Assembly (NCBI GenBank): GCA_027298025.1
Contig: JAPUGV010000129.1
Coordinates: forward strand, 1 to 36,096
Direction of reading: 5' to 3'
Source of the DNA: Chloroflexota bacterium
GTDB taxonomy: Bacteria > Chloroflexota > Anaerolineae > Anaerolineales > E44-bin32
Length of the DNA: 36,096 nt
Shown: positions 12,784 to 21,080 of the stretch, in pieces
Layout of the letters: every line of letters starts with the position of its first letter
Numbering within the stretch: position 1 is the stretch's first letter
Program-made: the position numbers and the translations under genes
Notes under the pieces: model-generated
What the model saw: the letters and a program-made list of their open reading frames with translations, nothing else
Databases searched by the model: none
Told to the model about the DNA's origin: nothing

Positions 12784-12886
12784 GCTAAGTTAACAATCCT
12801 CCTACGTCACACATATCTGTTTCTGACGGCACCCAATTACCATAGATTCGAATTCGATGACAAAGAAAATTCTAGGAGGTAACACG

Positions 12887-13282
12887 ATGCAAAGTTACTA
12901 CAGAGGGTATCCGAGGCGAAGACGCTGGAACGGGTCTCGTACCATCGGCTTCAACGGCGGCCGGCGCATGCCGATCGACGTGCACTCAGACGATGAGGCC
13001 TACCTGATCACGGCCGCCGTGCCGGGTCTATCGGCCGAGGAGGTGAAGGTTGAGGTGCTCGACGATCTGGTGACGATGAGTGGCGAAATTACCCTTGAGG
13101 AGAATGGTGGCAGCCAGAAGATTCTCAGCGAGCTGCGTCACAGCTTCTACCGTCAGGTCCGACTGCCCGAGGCCGTCAACGCGGATGAGATCGAGGCCAA
13201 GGTCGAGAAGGGGCTGCTGACGGTGCGTATCCCCAAGGCCGATGAAGCCCGACCCAAGAAGATTGAAGTCAAGGCTGAGTAA
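12887..13282 (+). CDS. Hsp20/alpha-crystallin family small heat shock protein
   Basis: ACD pattern DVHSDDEAYLITAAVPGLSAEEVKVEVLDDLVTMSGE ... VEKGLLTVRIPKA; RBS AGGAGG just upstream. Confidence 0.95.
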   Translation: MQSYYRGYPRRRRWNGSRTIGFNGGRRMPIDVHSDDEAYLITAAVPGLSAEEVKVEVLDDLVTMSGEITLEENGGSQKILSELRHSFYRQVRLPEAVNADEIEAKVEKGLLTVRIPKADEARPKKIEVKAE

Positions 13283-13302: not shown

Positions 13303-13331
13303 AAAATGGGCGGCGCTTGCCGCCCATTTTT
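13303..13331 (+). terminator. Rho-independent terminator after hsp20
   Basis: AAAATGGGCGGC-GCTT-GCCGCCCATTTT followed by T/C-rich tract. Confidence 0.9.
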
Positions 13332-13360
13332 CTTTTCCCCGATTCGCGCGCGAGCCGAGA

Positions 13361-14134
13361 ATGATTCAAAACGAGGCTCCGATCCTAAACCCTAATTCAG
13401 CCGAAGACGGTGAATTGCGCCAGCTTCCCGGCGTCGGTCCTCGATTAGCTAGCCGCATTATCGAGGGCCGGCCCTATCAGAGCCTGGAAGATCTGCGCCA
13501 GGTACCTGGCATCGGCGACAGCGTCCTTGAAGCGATTAAGCCCTTCCTGACCTTTGAGCCTGAGGCCCCGGAAGATTCGAAGGAGCGAGCTCCGGAAGAG
13601 AAAGAGCCTGCGGAAGCGAAGCCGGTGAAAGCGTCTCCACTGTCTGATCGGGCTGAAGCGAAAGAGGTGAAATATCCCCTCGTTCGGACGGAGCCCAGTT
13701 CGCAAAGGACTGGCTTCTGGGCCTTGCTAGCGATGGGTGCTGCCAGCGTCCTGTGCTCCGTCACACTTACGCTGGCCGTGATAGGCGGAATCAACGGTAC
13801 ACTGGACTTCGGCCGACACTCTGCGTTGCAGGACACGCGCAGTGAGTTGCTGCAGATTAGATCCCAATTGGAGGCCATACAAGTCGACCTCGATGCACTG
13901 CACGGTCGGGCCGAAGCTCTCGAAGGAATGTCCGGCAGGATGGCTGAGGTAGAAGGCCAGGTAGCGGCGCTGCAACAGCAAATCGGTGAGTCGCTCGAGG
14001 CTGTGGATGAAATGCAGGTGGAGCTGACCGCGGCGCTGGAAGAAACTCGTGCCCAAGCGGAGCGTGTCAACCGCTTCCAGTCCTTTTTGGATGGATTGAG
14101 TCGGTTGGTCGGCCAGGTCTTTACGGAACCATGA
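13361..14134 (+). CDS. Helix-hairpin-helix (ComEA-like) protein with single TM and extracytoplasmic coiled coil
   Basis: LRQLPGVGPRLASRIIEGRPYQSLEDLRQVPGIGDSVLEAIKPFL (paired HhH), TM ALLAMGAASVLCSVTLTLAVIGG, heptad-like C-terminus. Confidence 0.8.
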   Translation: MIQNEAPILNPNSAEDGELRQLPGVGPRLASRIIEGRPYQSLEDLRQVPGIGDSVLEAIKPFLTFEPEAPEDSKERAPEEKEPAEAKPVKASPLSDRAEAKEVKYPLVRTEPSSQRTGFWALLAMGAASVLCSVTLTLAVIGGINGTLDFGRHSALQDTRSELLQIRSQLEAIQVDLDALHGRAEALEGMSGRMAEVEGQVAALQQQIGESLEAVDEMQVELTAALEETRAQAERVNRFQSFLDGLSRLVGQVFTEP

Positions 14135-14859
14135 GTTCGACGATGAACGACTCCGACCGCACATTCCTGGGGCGATTATTCGGGATACTGCTTCGGCTGG
14201 CTGTAGTGGTTGTACTCGGAGTCGCCCTGGCGGCCGGGGCATACTTCGGAATTCCGCGAGCCTATCGCAGTCTCATAGAGCCTGCGCAGGTCAACACCGC
14301 TCGCATTGATGCCATTGAAGCCGAGCTGGATCTTGCGCGCGGCGACACCCGCTCTCTGGGCGACCGCACGGGTGATCAGCTGGCCGAGTTGGAGGCGGCT
14401 CTGGCGGAGGGGGGCGAATCATTGGCGACAGCCCAATTGCAGCTCGAGGAGGCGCTGGCAGCCTCGCTGGATCAGAGTCGCGCGATGGAGGTCCTGACGG
14501 ACCAAATCGGGACCCTAAGGGGTGCACTGGGCGACCTTACGGATCAGGTCGATGCGGCTCTCAGTGAGCTCGGACAGCCCGAAGAAGAACTCCGACAGGA
14601 GCTGCTGATCAACCGCGTCATGCTCCATCTGGTACGTGCGAGACTCGGACTGTTAGAAAACAATGCCGGACTGGCAGCCGACGAGGCCGCTCGGGCGCGC
14701 GCGCTACTAGTAGAGACGGACCCCGAGGGCGAAATCGAAAATGTTCAAGATGCGATCGCTCGAATCGATCTTGCTCTCGAAACGATGCCAACGACCCCGC
14801 TGGTTGCGGGGGGTGATCTGGAGATTGCCTGGAAGCTGCTGGTGCAACCTCATGAGTGA
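14131..14859 (+). CDS. Single-pass membrane coiled-coil protein of unknown function
   Basis: TM GILLRLAVVVVLGVALAAGAYFGI then long heptad-like region; ATGA overlap with upstream stop codon. Confidence 0.75.
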   Translation: MSSTMNDSDRTFLGRLFGILLRLAVVVVLGVALAAGAYFGIPRAYRSLIEPAQVNTARIDAIEAELDLARGDTRSLGDRTGDQLAELEAALAEGGESLATAQLQLEEALAASLDQSRAMEVLTDQIGTLRGALGDLTDQVDAALSELGQPEEELRQELLINRVMLHLVRARLGLLENNAGLAADEAARARALLVETDPEGEIENVQDAIARIDLALETMPTTPLVAGGDLEIAWKLLVQPHE

Positions 14860-15511
14860 AGAGCGGTTACCGAAGGAGCAGATCGGTTCCGAATCGGATC
14901 CCGAAGATGCTGCGGAGCAGCAAATCGGGACCGAGATCTCTGACGGTGAGCGACCCGAACCGGACACTCCGGAAACCAAAGATGAGAGTCGAACGGGCCG
15001 CTTTCTCAAGCGGGTGTTCCGATGGGCAGTGCTGTTGCTGATTATCTTCATGCTTGGAGTCGTGGCATTAGAAATCGTGCAGGTGCGCCCGCTGAGAGCG
15101 GAGCGAGACAGTCTCGATCAATCGCTGGTCGAAGCAGGTGCAATTCAGCAGGAACAGCAGGCGGAGATCGATCGGCTGGAAGGGGTGGAGGAAGAGAACC
15201 AGGTCCTGGCCGCGTCCCTAAATCAGGCCGAGGCCCGCCTGGTCCTTCTGAACGTGCTGGTTGACGTAACCCGGGCACAGCTAGCGCTGGCTCAGGACGA
15301 TCCAGTCAGAGTTGCTGCCGCACTTCGGGGCACCGGCGAGAAGCTGGGATCCCTTCGCGATCTACTGGGACCGACCGAACTCGACGGATTGCGCGAGCGA
15401 CTCGTCCTGGTGCTGTCCGAGGTGGATGACGACCCGTTCGCGGCGGAGCGTGACCTGGAGATTCTGGCCAATACGTTGCTAGAAATCGAGCGGGAGCAAT
15501 CCGAGGAGTAG
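14852..15511 (+). CDS. Single-pass membrane coiled-coil protein of unknown function
   Basis: Acidic N-terminus, TM WAVLLLIIFMLGVVALEIV, coiled-coil C-terminus; ATGAGTGA overlaps the upstream stop. Confidence 0.75.
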   Translation: MSEERLPKEQIGSESDPEDAAEQQIGTEISDGERPEPDTPETKDESRTGRFLKRVFRWAVLLLIIFMLGVVALEIVQVRPLRAERDSLDQSLVEAGAIQQEQQAEIDRLEGVEEENQVLAASLNQAEARLVLLNVLVDVTRAQLALAQDDPVRVAAALRGTGEKLGSLRDLLGPTELDGLRERLVLVLSEVDDDPFAAERDLEILANTLLEIEREQSEE

Positions 15512-15536: not shown

Positions 15537-15562
15537 GCGGGCTTCCATAAATCGAAGCCCGC
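15537..15562. terminator. Hairpin between convergent operons
   Basis: GCGGGCTTC-N8-GAAGCCCGC. Confidence 0.5.
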
Positions 15563-15636: not shown

Positions 15637-16809
15637 CTAGGGCCGGGGCTCCAAAGTCAATGGAAAATCGACAACTTCACCATCTCGCAACACGGTGAGT
15701 GTAACGAGCTCGCCAACATTGGCCTCTGTAACCAGATAAGAGATCAGGTCACTGAAGGTGCTGATGGACTGTCCGTCGATCGCAATGATGAGATCCCCGC
15801 CGGCTGAAGTGTCTGGAGATCCGCAGGCGCCTGCGCCTCGAATGCCGGCTCGATCGGCTGGCCCGCCGTTGACCACACAGGTAACGTAAACTCCGATTGC
15901 GCGGGAAGGAAGCTCCAGGAATTCCAGCTGCCTGAGATTCAATGAGCCGTCACCCAGGCTGGTGATGCCGAGATAGGGATAGTTGTAGCCTCCGCTCTGG
16001 ATCAGTGCCGGTACGACCCTTCGCAGGATATTGACTGGGACCGCGAATCCGACGCCGGAGTTCGAGGCGCTCCCGGAAACGGTGAAACTTTCGGTTGAGA
16101 TGGCGCGATTGACGCCGATTACCTGGCCTTGTAGGTTGAGCAACGGGCCCCCCGAGTTACCTGGATTGATGGCCGCGTCGGTCTGGATCAGGTCCCCCGC
16201 ACTAAACGAACCGCCTCCAGGCGCCTCGCGTTCGGATTGAAGCACCCGGCCGATGGCCGAGACGACCCCCACCGTCATGGACCCGGACAATCCAAATGGA
16301 TTTCCGATCGCCACGACGAATTCTCCGACTTGGACCTGGTCGGAATCTCCAAGCGGTATTGGGATCAGCTCCTCCGGCGGCGCATCCACTCTCAACACGG
16401 CCAGATCGGAGTCTGGATCGGTTCCGACCAGCGTTGCCCAGGCCTTGAACCCGGAAGGAAAGTCCACTTCGATTGCTTCGGCGCCATCGACGACGTGCTG
16501 ATTGGTCACGATATGACCCTCGGTATCGATGACGAAGCCCGATCCCTGGCCCAACGGAATGGTGTTTGGATGTGGAGCGGCGAAGGTGTAGATGGTAACC
16601 ACGCCCGGGTTCACGCGGTTGTAGAGATCTACGAGATTGTCTGGCAGAGAGAAACCGTTCCGCGGAATGTTAGAAACAACGGTTGGCGCTTCCAGAGTCG
16701 GCGCCGGCGGGGCAGTAGGCGGTGGCACAGGGGAAGCAGGGGAGGGGAGCACCGTGCAGGCCAGCGACGCGACTCCCAGAACGGAGATGAGTAGAGTTAT
16801 TCGTTTCAT
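15637..16809 (-). CDS. HtrA/DegP-like S1C serine protease with PDZ domain, predicted lipoprotein
   Basis: GSGFVIDTEGHIVTNQHVV, DPDSDLAVLRV, GNSGGPLLNLQGQVIGVN; C-terminal PDZ; signal LGVASLAC. Confidence 0.95.
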   Translation of the reverse strand: MKRITLLISVLGVASLACTVLPSPASPVPPPTAPPAPTLEAPTVVSNIPRNGFSLPDNLVDLYNRVNPGVVTIYTFAAPHPNTIPLGQGSGFVIDTEGHIVTNQHVVDGAEAIEVDFPSGFKAWATLVGTDPDSDLAVLRVDAPPEELIPIPLGDSDQVQVGEFVVAIGNPFGLSGSMTVGVVSAIGRVLQSEREAPGGGSFSAGDLIQTDAAINPGNSGGPLLNLQGQVIGVNRAISTESFTVSGSASNSGVGFAVPVNILRRVVPALIQSGGYNYPYLGITSLGDGSLNLRQLEFLELPSRAIGVYVTCVVNGGPADRAGIRGAGACGSPDTSAGGDLIIAIDGQSISTFSDLISYLVTEANVGELVTLTVLRDGEVVDFPLTLEPRP

Positions 16810-16846
16810 GAGGAGATTTCCATTTACCTTAGGCGCGGGCTTCGGG

Positions 16847-17743
16847 TCAGGATTCGCGGAGTTTGGCCAGCTGCTCGAAGAGACCACGCTCTTCCTTGCT
16901 TAATTCCTTTGGCAAAGAAATTTTGAGCTTAACTAGCAGGTCTCCATGTTGGGTCGGGTTGCGCAGGTTCGGCATGCCACGGCCACGAAGGCGGAACTTG
17001 CGGCCCGGCTGACTACCGGCGGGGATCTTCAGCATCACCGGTCCACCCAGTGTGCTCACTTCGATTTCTGCGCCCAGGATGGCGGTGTACAGATCGGTTG
17101 CTACTTCCGTTAACAGGTTGTCGCCCTTTCTCTCGATCCCGGGCATGTCCTGCACGCGCACCTTGAGATACAGGTCGCCTGGCTGACCCGTGCTGCGTTC
17201 CCCCTGGCCCGAAACACGGACCCGGGTTCCGGTCTTGGAACCCGATGGAATGACCACCTCTAGTTTGCGGCCATTGAGTTTGAACGTGCGACTGGTCCCG
17301 CTATAGGCTTCCATCAGCGAGATCGTGATGGGTTGCTCCAGATCCCGTCCCCTCAAACGAGACCGCGCCTGTGGACCCATCCCAAAGACGGAATTGAAGA
17401 AATCCGAGAAGCCGCCTCCGCCGAAGAGATCCCCGAAATCACCCACCTCGACTCGAGTCCCCCCCGGAGCACCCGATGACCACTGAGACCAATCAAACCC
17501 ACCGGGTGCGCTGCCAGCCCGCTCCCAATTCCGGTAGGACGAGCCGAGCTGATTGTACTTGGAGCGCTTTTCGGCATCGCCAAGTACCTCATAGGCTTCG
17601 TTGATCTCTTTGAAGTGCTCTTCGGAGTCCGGGTTCTTGTCCGGATGGTATTTGAGCGCGAGTTGCCGATAGGCGCTCTTGATCTCTTTCTCATCTGCGT
17701 TGCGGCTCACGCCGAGGATCTCGTAGTAGTCCTTGTATTCCAT
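16847..17743 (-). CDS. DnaJ/CbpA-like J-domain co-chaperone without zinc finger
   Basis: [52 protein letters not shown] with HPD motif; G/F region; C-terminal substrate-binding domain. Confidence 0.95.
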
Positions 17744-17873: not shown

Positions 17874-19058
17874 GTGAGCCCCGCTCCGGCAACCGAACGT
17901 GTGCTTATCGTAGATGAAGATCCCGATGTGCTGGATCTGCTGTCGCGCCAGGTGCTCGTGCCGCTGGGATACGAGGTGGCAACTGCGAACGAAGCCGGTG
18001 CCGCGATTCAGCAGGCGGTGTCTTTCTCACCGGATCTGATCGTGGCCAGTCTCATGTTGCCCGGTCTAAGTGGAAAGGATCTGCTGGTCGCGCTGCGATC
18101 GCAGGGCTTGGATGTTCCCGTGCTAGTTACGGCGGAGGAGGGCCAGGAGGCGGACGCCATCCAGGCGTTCCGACTGGGCGCTAGAGACTACTTGGTCAAG
18201 CCGCTGCGAGAGGCCGAAGTGCTGGCAGCCATTGAGCGTGCCCTGAAAGAAGTCCGCTTGAGCCACCAAACTAAGCAGCTTGCGGCTGAGCTGGCGGAGA
18301 GCCATCGCCAACTCGAGCAGCGGGTTCGGGAACTCACCACCATCTACGGGATCGGTAAGGCCGTAACTTCCACCACGAATCAGCGCGATCTATTCGATAA
18401 GCTGATGGCGAGCAGCCTCAACGTAACGAACGCGGATATGGGGTGGGTGCTGCTCCTGGACGAAGACAGCGGCCACCTGTACATGCGCGCGCAGCGCGGA
18501 ATGCCGCAAGCGCTAGCAAACAAACTCCATCAACCGTGGGATGACGGCGTGAGCTCCCTGGTCATGCTCTCCGCAGAGACGCTCAGCATTCACGGCGACG
18601 GACTGCGGCAATTCAAACTGGCTCGCTTCGCGAAGGCGGCCCTGATCGTCCCGATCAAAGCGCGCGAGGAAGCCATCGGAGTAATCACCGTCGCCCGAGA
18701 AGAGGCCAAGCCGTTTTCGGAGCCAAATCAGCGAATGTTGGAAGCACTCTCCGACTATGCGTCCATTTCACTGATCAACTCGCGACTGTTTCAGGCCCTC
18801 ACCGGTCGGGCAGAGCAGTTGCAGGAAGTGGTGGATGAGACTCGAAGCGGCATGCAAGATCAAGTGGCATGGGTGAAGCGGGTGCGCGCGGAGCTTAAAG
18901 GATTGCAGGAACAGATCCCCGACCTGCTGAAAAGTTCGGAACACCCCTCCCAGCGTAAGCGACTCCAGGTTCTGAGCGGCGATGTCGAAACCATGCTGCA
19001 GGAACTGGACGAAATGCCACACCTCCAGACCGCGACCGCTCCCTCTCTAACTGCCTGA
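17874..19058 (+). CDS. Receiver-GAF protein with degenerate receiver (Asp to Ser)
   Basis: LIVDEDPDVLDLL, SPDLIVASLMLPGLSG (Ser at Asp position), LVTAEEG, DYLVKPL; GAF domain follows; GTG start. Confidence 0.88.
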   Translation: MSPAPATERVLIVDEDPDVLDLLSRQVLVPLGYEVATANEAGAAIQQAVSFSPDLIVASLMLPGLSGKDLLVALRSQGLDVPVLVTAEEGQEADAIQAFRLGARDYLVKPLREAEVLAAIERALKEVRLSHQTKQLAAELAESHRQLEQRVRELTTIYGIGKAVTSTTNQRDLFDKLMASSLNVTNADMGWVLLLDEDSGHLYMRAQRGMPQALANKLHQPWDDGVSSLVMLSAETLSIHGDGLRQFKLARFAKAALIVPIKAREEAIGVITVAREEAKPFSEPNQRMLEALSDYASISLINSRLFQALTGRAEQLQEVVDETRSGMQDQVAWVKRVRAELKGLQEQIPDLLKSSEHPSQRKRLQVLSGDVETMLQELDEMPHLQTATAPSLTA

Positions 19059-19154
19059 GCGCAGCCATCGACGCGGGTACCATATTCGCGCGCCCACGAG
19101 CGTGCTAGGATCAAACGGCTGGCCAGCTTCATGCAACCTCCTCGGAAATAAAAT

Positions 19155-21080
19155 ATGGGTAAACCCCTGATACTCATCGCGGACGACAGTCCGGACATGC
19201 GCCTTTACCTGGAAGAGGCGGTGTTAGGCCCTGCTGGCTATGAGGTGAAAACCGTCGGCGATGGGATGTCGGCACTTACGCTGGCGAGGGAGATTGACCC
19301 GGATGTCGTGATCACCGACTATCAGATGCCGAATCTGACCGGCCTCGAATTGGTCCGTCGCATCTGCTCAGATCTACCCCATCCCCCCGTCATCATGATG
19401 ACCAGTGCGCCCAGCGAGATGCTGGCGGTGGAGGCCATGCGGGCCGGCGCTTTTGATTTCCTCTCCAAGCCTTTTGAAGCGGAGCTCATGCTCGCGGCAG
19501 TGGGCAGGGCGCTCTCCCAGCGCAGGCGATGGATGGAGATCATCGAGGCCCACACGAATGCCAGCGAGACGGCCGAGACACTGAAACGCAGACTGGAGGA
19601 ATTCGAAACCCTGGCGCTGATTGGTCGCACCGTTACGGCTACGTTGGACCACAACGAGGTGCTGACGGCAGTAGTGGATGAGGCGGTGCGGTTGACCGGA
19701 GCAGAAGAAGGCAGCCTGTTGCTTATCGATGAGGCCACGGGCGAGCTCTATATGCGGGCCTCGAAGAACTTCGATGAGGTCTTCGCCCGCACGTTTCGGC
19801 TGCAAGTCGAAGACTCGCTGGCGGGCCAGGCCATCGAGTCGGGTGAGCCTGTGCTGCTGGATGAGCAGACGCCCCAGAAGATCAAGACCTCCTACTTGGT
19901 TCATTCCCTGATTTACGTGCCGCTGAATGCACGCGGCCGAACGATCGGTGTTTTGGGGGTTGACAATCGCAAGGCGGGGCGCACGTTGACCCACGCAGAC
20001 GTAACGATCATGACTGCCATGGCAGATTATGCGGCCATCGCAATCGAAAACGCGCGCCTGTTCAACAGCTCGGAAGCGGAGCGTCGAAAGCTGGAAACGA
20101 TATTGGCACGCGTCGAAAATGGCGTGATTGTCGTCGACCCCGAGAACCGACTACTCATCATGAATCGGACCGCGCGTGAAGCCTTTGGAGTGAACGGAAA
20201 TTGGAACGGCTGTCCGGTCAACGAGATCATCGAGGATCCAAGGGTACTGGCCTTGTTGCGTGCCTCGGGCGGAGTTTCGAAAAGAGAGGAAATAGAACTC
20301 GAGGACGGCAGAGTGTTCAACGCCCAACGTACCCCCATCGAAGGCATCGGGCAAGCGATCGTGATGCAAGATATCACGCACCTCAAGGAATTGGATCGCA
20401 TCAAGTCGGAATTCGTCACAACGGTTTCGCACGACTTGCGCTCTCCCCTGACGGCCATACTCGGCTATGTCGAACTGATAGAACGTTCCGGCGGGTTGAG
20501 TAAGCAGCAGGAGGAGTTCATTCATCGCGTCCAACTCAGCGTGAGTCAGATCACGGACCTGGTGAGCAATCTGCTGGATTTAGGGCGAATCGAGGCGGGC
20601 CTGGACGAGGCCAAGGAGAACACGCCCGTCATGGTGCTGGCGCGCTATGCGCTTGAAAGCATGCGAAGTACTGCAGAAAGTAAGGGTCTGAGCCTGGAGT
20701 CGGATCTTCCGGAAGAGTTACCGATGGTCCTGGGAGCTCCCATCCGGCTGAGACAAATGATCGGCAACCTGCTCGACAATGCGATCAAATACACTCCACC
20801 CGGAGGTTTGGTACAGATCGAAGGCGAGGGGGAGGGCGACCAGGTGATCCTGCGCGTGAGAGATTCGGGCCCCGGAATACCGACTGCCGATCAGCCGTAC
20901 CTGTTTGATAAGTTCTTCCGGGCAAGCAACGCCCCCGAGGATCTACCCGGAACGGGACTTGGCCTCTCGATCGTCAAGTCTATCGTGGACAACCACGACG
21001 GTCGAATTTGGGTTGAGTCCGCTTTAGGTGAGGGAACGACCTTTACGGTCGTGCTGCCCATCGCCGAATCCCTAGAGTAA
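19155..21080 (+). CDS. Receiver-GAF-PAS hybrid sensor histidine kinase
   Basis: Receiver ADDSPD/VVITDYQMP/FLSKPF; GAF; PAS; HisKA SHDLRSPLTAILGYVELI; HATPase IGNLLDNAIKYTPPGG, DSGPGIP, GTGLGLSIVKSIV. Confidence 0.95.
   Translation: MGKPLILIADDSPDMRLYLEEAVLGPAGYEVKTVGDGMSALTLAREIDPDVVITDYQMPNLTGLELVRRICSDLPHPPVIMMTSAPSEMLAVEAMRAGAFDFLSKPFEAELMLAAVGRALSQRRRWMEIIEAHTNASETAETLKRRLEEFETLALIGRTVTATLDHNEVLTAVVDEAVRLTGAEEGSLLLIDEATGELYMRASKNFDEVFARTFRLQVEDSLAGQAIESGEPVLLDEQTPQKIKTSYLVHSLIYVPLNARGRTIGVLGVDNRKAGRTLTHADVTIMTAMADYAAIAIENARLFNSSEAERRKLETILARVENGVIVVDPENRLLIMNRTAREAFGVNGNWNGCPVNEIIEDPRVLALLRASGGVSKREEIELEDGRVFNAQRTPIEGIGQAIVMQDITHLKELDRIKSEFVTTVSHDLRSPLTAILGYVELIERSGGLSKQQEEFIHRVQLSVSQITDLVSNLLDLGRIEAGLDEAKENTPVMVLARYALESMRSTAESKGLSLESDLPEELPMVLGAPIRLRQMIGNLLDNAIKYTPPGGLVQIEGEGEGDQVILRVRDSGPGIPTADQPYLFDKFFRASNAPEDLPGTGLGLSIVKSIVDNHDGRIWVESALGEGTTFTVVLPIAESLE

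Follow-up and report, generated by a model that had tools for sequence, protein, structure and literature searches.

Three overlapping genes for membrane-anchored coiled-coil proteins in a conserved stress island of a Chloroflexota bacterium

What could be the role of three overlapping genes that each encode a membrane-anchored coiled-coil protein, the first of them carrying a helix-hairpin-helix (HhH) domain? Such a triad (g1, g2 and g3; Table 1) lies within the window, which is a whole 36-kb contig (C34) of a 2.7 Mb draft genome whose closest relatives with a name are Chloroflexi MAGs. The original prediction proposed a nucleoid-envelope tether, a DNA-uptake accessory or an envelope-stress complex. 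No paper was found in a literature search on transmembrane coiled-coil proteins with an HhH in Anaerolineae.

Table 1. Positions of the triad, its domains, its flanking signals and its neighbours in the window
Feature	Position	Strand	Description
Hsp20 small heat-shock protein	12857..13282	+	Conserved upstream neighbour; start probably 12887
Intrinsic terminator	13303..13337	+	Between Hsp20 and g1; z -4.9; terminator kept in sister genome, loop changed
g1	13361..14134	+	(HhH)2 domain, acidic linker, transmembrane segment (TM), coiled coil; 257 aa
(HhH)2 domain of g1, aa 9-64	13385..13552	+	ComEA-type; hairpins PGVG and PGIG intact
Predicted TM of g1, ~aa 118-142	13712..13786	+	Conserved outer end GINGTL
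g2	14131..14859	+	TM, then a long helix (aa 12-147) and a four-helix bundle (aa 151-238)
g2 C-terminal four-helix bundle	14581..14844	+	AlphaFold2, pLDDT ~90 or more
g3	14852..15511	+	N-terminal tail acidic and disordered; then TM, a long helix (aa 47-147) and a helical bundle (aa 151-218); g2 paralogue
9-bp hairpin	15537..15562	not assigned	Between convergent g3 and HtrA; no T-run; z -3.7
HtrA/Do-type serine protease with PDZ	15637..16887	-	Conserved convergent neighbour
DnaJ/CbpA-type co-chaperone	16847..17743	-	Conserved neighbour

The triad consists of genuine protein-coding genes. The three proteins are 67-69% identical to those of a sister species, and pairwise dN/dS values against the sister genome are ~0.25 for g1, ~0.31 for g2 and ~0.40 for g3, so all three have been selected as proteins. 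The start of g3 is the ATG at 14852, and the longer listed reading frame from 14741 uses an upstream start. The predicted gene overlaps were confirmed (4 nt between g1 and g2, 8 nt between g2 and g3), as was the claim of one TM per protein, since each contains a single hydrophobic segment. The terminator expected before g1 is strong, and a hairpin does follow g3. The original prediction took these features to mark a discrete unit, but the triad is not self-contained, as it sits in a larger conserved neighbourhood. Only ~23 nt separate the T-run of the terminator from the g1 start, with the same layout in the sister genome (L033), and no sigma-70-type promoter site was found on the + strand near g1. 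Transcription may reach the triad by read-through from Hsp20 or start at an overlapping promoter. No Shine-Dalgarno-like site is seen ahead of the g1 start in 13303-13361. The window contains no CIRCE heat-shock operator and no Rfam match.

The HhH domain of g1 was correctly recognized, with a match to Pfam HHH_3 (PF12836) over residues 9-64 (E 5.7e-13, 49 bits against a cut-off of 27). ComEA likewise has a single TM, and its (HhH)2 domain, which also contains two GhG hairpins, is homologous. However, ComEA is arranged as TM-SLBB-HhH with the HhH outside the membrane, whereas g1 is arranged as HhH-TM-coiled coil, and its HhH is ~4 residues shorter between the hairpins than that of ComEA from the same genome set. 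A role as a ComEA-related accessory of DNA uptake draws on the match of the HhH to the domain part of TIGR01259 (E 5e-10), but at 39.3 bits this match falls far below the cut-off of 152. With its domain order reversed, no com genes recognized nearby and a normal TM-SLBB-HhH ComEA encoded elsewhere in the same genome, g1 is rejected as ComEA and the DNA-uptake reading deserves very little credence. The short loop of the g1 (HhH)2 domain is shared with PsbU (PF06514), for which g1 scores above the Pfam cut-off. PsbU differs in being an extrinsic photosystem II protein lacking a TM and a coiled coil, and its HhH is not known to bind DNA.

The other two proteins appear to be built on a common plan. 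In AlphaFold2 models made with family alignments, g2 is a single helix (residues 12-147) followed by four short helices (151-238), with a mean pLDDT of 82 and a bundle mostly at 90 or above. In the g3 model (pLDDT 82), an acidic, disordered tail is followed by a helix at 47-147 and four short helices. The original prediction that their C-terminal regions are related was borne out. Profile-profile alignment of the two families gives a probability of 98.7%, and hhalign of the C-terminal domains alone gives 97.4% (E 1e-11). The two are thus paralogues. Like them, g1 combines a TM and a coiled coil, but it lacks the C-terminal bundle.

Neither g2 nor g3 belongs to a named family by the searches made. 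No Pfam or NCBIfam match reached its cut-off, a sequence-profile search of the PDB returned only generic coiled coils, and Foldseek found nothing in the PDB at E <1e-3 for either model, the best matches being the four-helix bundles of FliS and SMBP (E 0.03-0.06). PADLOC anti-phage defence models gave weak coiled-coil matches only, with no system gene beyond the coiled coil. The original prediction had noted a loose likeness to HemX. A membrane-shaping or scaffold family of the HemX/mitofilin kind would share the order of parts, with an N-in TM, a coiled coil and a small helical C-terminal domain, and the bundle visually resembles part of HemX. The likeness did not hold up in profile searches. 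PF04375 is matched by none of the three proteins and by nothing in their own genome, while an E. coli control was positive. Although full-length hhalign probabilities are 74-82%, these are carried mainly by the TM and coil, and the C-terminal domains of g2 and g3 reach only 0.3% and 0.9% with a six-species profile. HemX also has a further C-terminal region and other surrounding genes, and none of the neighbours identified at 71 loci is a heme gene, where unlabelled genes were scanned in part. On the profile results, assignment of g2 and g3 to HemX is rejected, and the broader HemX/mitofilin reading is very unlikely. A cell-division set resembling FtsB, FtsL and DivIC, which are TM-coiled-coil proteins, is suggested by a weak match of g3 to DivIC (PF04977, E 0.036). 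At 14.3 bits this is below the cut-off of 28.9, and with the extra four-helix bundle and no division genes recognized nearby, we consider such a role very improbable.

The distribution of the genes indicates a lineage-specific and modular system. Among 200 genomes of the same Chloroflexota order, g2 is matched in 95 and g3 in 97. Full-length g1 is also common in the order; many shorter matches are restricted to the HhH, and the ones examined are ComEA. Across 300 genomes of the whole phylum, clear g2 and g3 matches fall almost wholly inside the order. The genes of the triad are co-conserved in that adjacency of g1 with g2 and of g2 with g3 recurs in several families, but each gene also occurs alone. 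Pairs of g1 and g3 are present at five loci of family f7 and one of f1, every one beside Hsp20, and g2-g3 pairs lacking g1 and loci with g3 alone were also seen. In family f11 (seven loci and L060), a single protein contains the HhH, a linker, a g2-type TM, a coiled coil, the bundle and a Thr-Pro tail. This fusion is the strongest sign of joint action by the HhH and g2, and hence probably by g1 and g2. A mirror-tree distance-matrix test of g1, g2 and g3, corrected for kinship with HtrA and DnaJ, was null (partial r 0.09, -0.04 and 0.09). It points to nothing beyond shared ancestry and counts against a complex.

Several other associations of g2 were also noted. In one f7 genome (L058:7353-9172), g2 follows an S1-domain protein with an overlapping start. 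It precedes a UspA-like protein in f7 and f5 (L054, L055), with a multi-TM transporter next in f7. In two f7 genomes (L125, L127), a CarD-like protein (FSEGDWVFHLYHGVGQVKG) is encoded upstream of g1-g2.

The positive charges before each TM had been taken to place all three N-termini inside the cell. The positive-inside rule supports this for g2 (19 proteins in favour, 0 opposed, 6 ties) and for g3 (19 of 19). For g1 it gives no such support when considered alone (5 in favour, 6 opposed, 7 ties). Thr-Pro-rich C-terminal tails, present in several relatives, agree with a C-out topology. From these tails, the 110-residue N-terminal tail of g1 and the N-in g2-type TM of the fused form, we infer that g1 is also N-in.

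This topology would place the HhH in the cytoplasm, where it could bind DNA with no sequence preference, fixed to the membrane by a coiled-coil complex. Such a nucleoid-envelope tether is favoured by the N-in orientation of g2- and g3-type TMs, the g2-type TM of the fused HhH-g2 protein, and the state of the hairpins. The window's g1 has the two GhG hairpins, PGVG and PGIG, that are expected of a DNA-binding (HhH)2 domain. Both are kept in 33 of 40 g1 proteins, one of the g1 proteins being cut by a contig end, and in all six ComEA controls. However, only one of the eight fused proteins keeps both, the other seven having lost the glycine pair of the first hairpin, and both hairpins are altered in two f6 triads inside the island. 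The HhH is absent from two g1 homologues (L059, L118), with profile matches for G047 and G374 in agreement, and g1 is missing entirely at several g2-g3 or g3 loci. The near-neutral net charge of the g1 HhH might also speak against a tether, but charge was judged uninformative on DNA binding, since a ComEA-type HhH can do without a net positive charge. No chromosome-segregation gene was recognized in the island. Nucleic-acid binding by the window's HhH is thus possible, given the hairpins kept in most g1 proteins, but their decay in fused forms and loss elsewhere indicate that it is not essential to the system everywhere. Docking of a protein is an equal candidate. We regard the nucleoid tether of the original prediction as possible, though rather unlikely.

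Two observations concern the HhH itself. The g1 homologue at L059:6943-7653 has too little upstream space to encode one. At L140 (G051:C5:990734-990979) a separate 139-residue frame combines an HhH at its N-terminus with a TM at its C-terminus that ends in RRRSQ, and short frames with a similar HhH are present in G256, G392 and G445 (family f13).

The genes around the triad were labelled at 71 loci, by Pfam and NCBIfam for representatives and by phmmer for the others. Most often, the genes run in the order Hsp20, rhomboid, SDH protease, g1, g2 and g3, head-on with baeRF10, HtrA and DnaJ on the opposite strand. In relatives, this island includes a rhomboid (PF01694), an SDH-type protease (PF01972) and baeRF10 (PF18854), a relative of hibernation factors. 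At least two of the six island genes are present at 20 of 24 triad loci (families f1, f6, f12, f13 and f14), at 11 of 17 loci with g3 alone and at three of five g2-g3 loci. Close relatives are among the loci counted, and the numbers should not be read as independent events. The remaining four triads, all in f12, have none. At g1-g2 loci lacking g3, which span nine families, island genes are present in 0 of 13. The island thus accompanies g3; the g1-g2 pair forms a separable second unit, which is often but not always located inside it.

Within the window, the HtrA and DnaJ frames, which lie on the - strand, share 41 bases (16847-16887) if the GTG start of HtrA is used. An internal ATG giving MKRITLLISVLGVASLAC looks like the true start, that of a lipoprotein-like signal. 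Beyond DnaJ, at 17874-21080, a pair of genes encodes proteins that have response-regulator and GAF domains, of which the second is a histidine kinase; the pair stays adjacent to the island in many relatives.

Taken together, the identities of the neighbours are those of a cluster for stress survival and membrane proteostasis. Genes of the Balon family of hibernation factors are reported to lie near Hsp20 and DnaJ in stress operons (PMC10901736), and baeRF family 10 retains the catalytic glutamine of release factors (PMC6514570). Bacterial rhomboids participate in membrane-protein quality control (PMC7232013, PMC7231995). The island resembles the Balon-containing operons in placing aeRF1-type hibernation-factor kin beside Hsp20 and DnaJ. 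It differs in adding rhomboid, SDH protease, HtrA and the triad, and the available portion of PMC10901736 describes no membrane coiled-coil proteins. Among the functions originally proposed, the envelope-stress complex is therefore the one favoured by the conserved neighbourhood. We suggest, with a probability of roughly 0.45, that g1-g3 form a scaffold or sensor of envelope stress or membrane proteostasis. Conservation of the island, the HhH-g2 fusion, the paralogy of g2 and g3, their shared predicted architecture and the Thr-Pro tails all count for a scaffold.

Other points weigh on the opposite side. Genomic context bears on function indirectly. No recurrent partner and no recurrent stress neighbour of g1-g2 was found by eye at the 13 loci outside the island, which counts against a stress function. 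The island is also reduced in the window's own genus. Searches of three genomes of the genus turned up neither SDH protease nor baeRF, and the rhomboid, absent at the window locus, is present in a third member (G002) and otherwise lies elsewhere or has been lost. This reduction also counts against the scaffold or sensor.

The proteases of the island raise another explanation, in which rhomboid, SDH protease or HtrA would cut g1 under stress and release the HhH into the cytoplasm. The outer end of the g1 TM (GGINGT) is rich in small, helix-breaking residues, and rhomboid and SDH protease are adjacent to the triad in relatives. However, these two proteases track g3 rather than g1, being beside none of the 13 g1-g2 pairs yet beside g3 where g1 is missing, and both are absent from the window's island. 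Regulated intramembrane proteolysis of g1 is accordingly quite improbable.

The triad encodes a lineage-specific set of single-pass membrane proteins, which as a scaffold or sensor of the cell envelope would most likely assemble through extracytoplasmic coiled coils. In this arrangement, g2 and g3 would have their helical bundles outside the membrane and g1 its HhH in the cytoplasm, where this domain would bind nucleic acid or protein. With Hsp20, rhomboid, the SDH-type membrane protease, HtrA, DnaJ and the hibernation-factor relative, the set would guard membrane and envelope proteins under stress, with g3 as the island partner and g1-g2 as a separable unit recruited beside it. A more specific version, which we consider a long shot, is a transmembrane stress-relay complex in which paralogous coiled-coil/four-helix-bundle proteins act as sensors outside the membrane and, joined to a nucleic-acid-binding cytoplasmic HhH, couple envelope damage to membrane proteolysis and ribosome hibernation.

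The envelope biology of Chloroflexota is little known. The g2 and g3 genes represent two families that have no database name, are present in about half of one order, and are linked through gene order with intramembrane proteases, chaperones and a relative of ribosome-hibernation factors. With the fused HhH-g2 form, the system can be approached through a single gene. If the triad is indeed the envelope arm of a stress programme, these would be testable genes linking membrane damage to translational shutdown.
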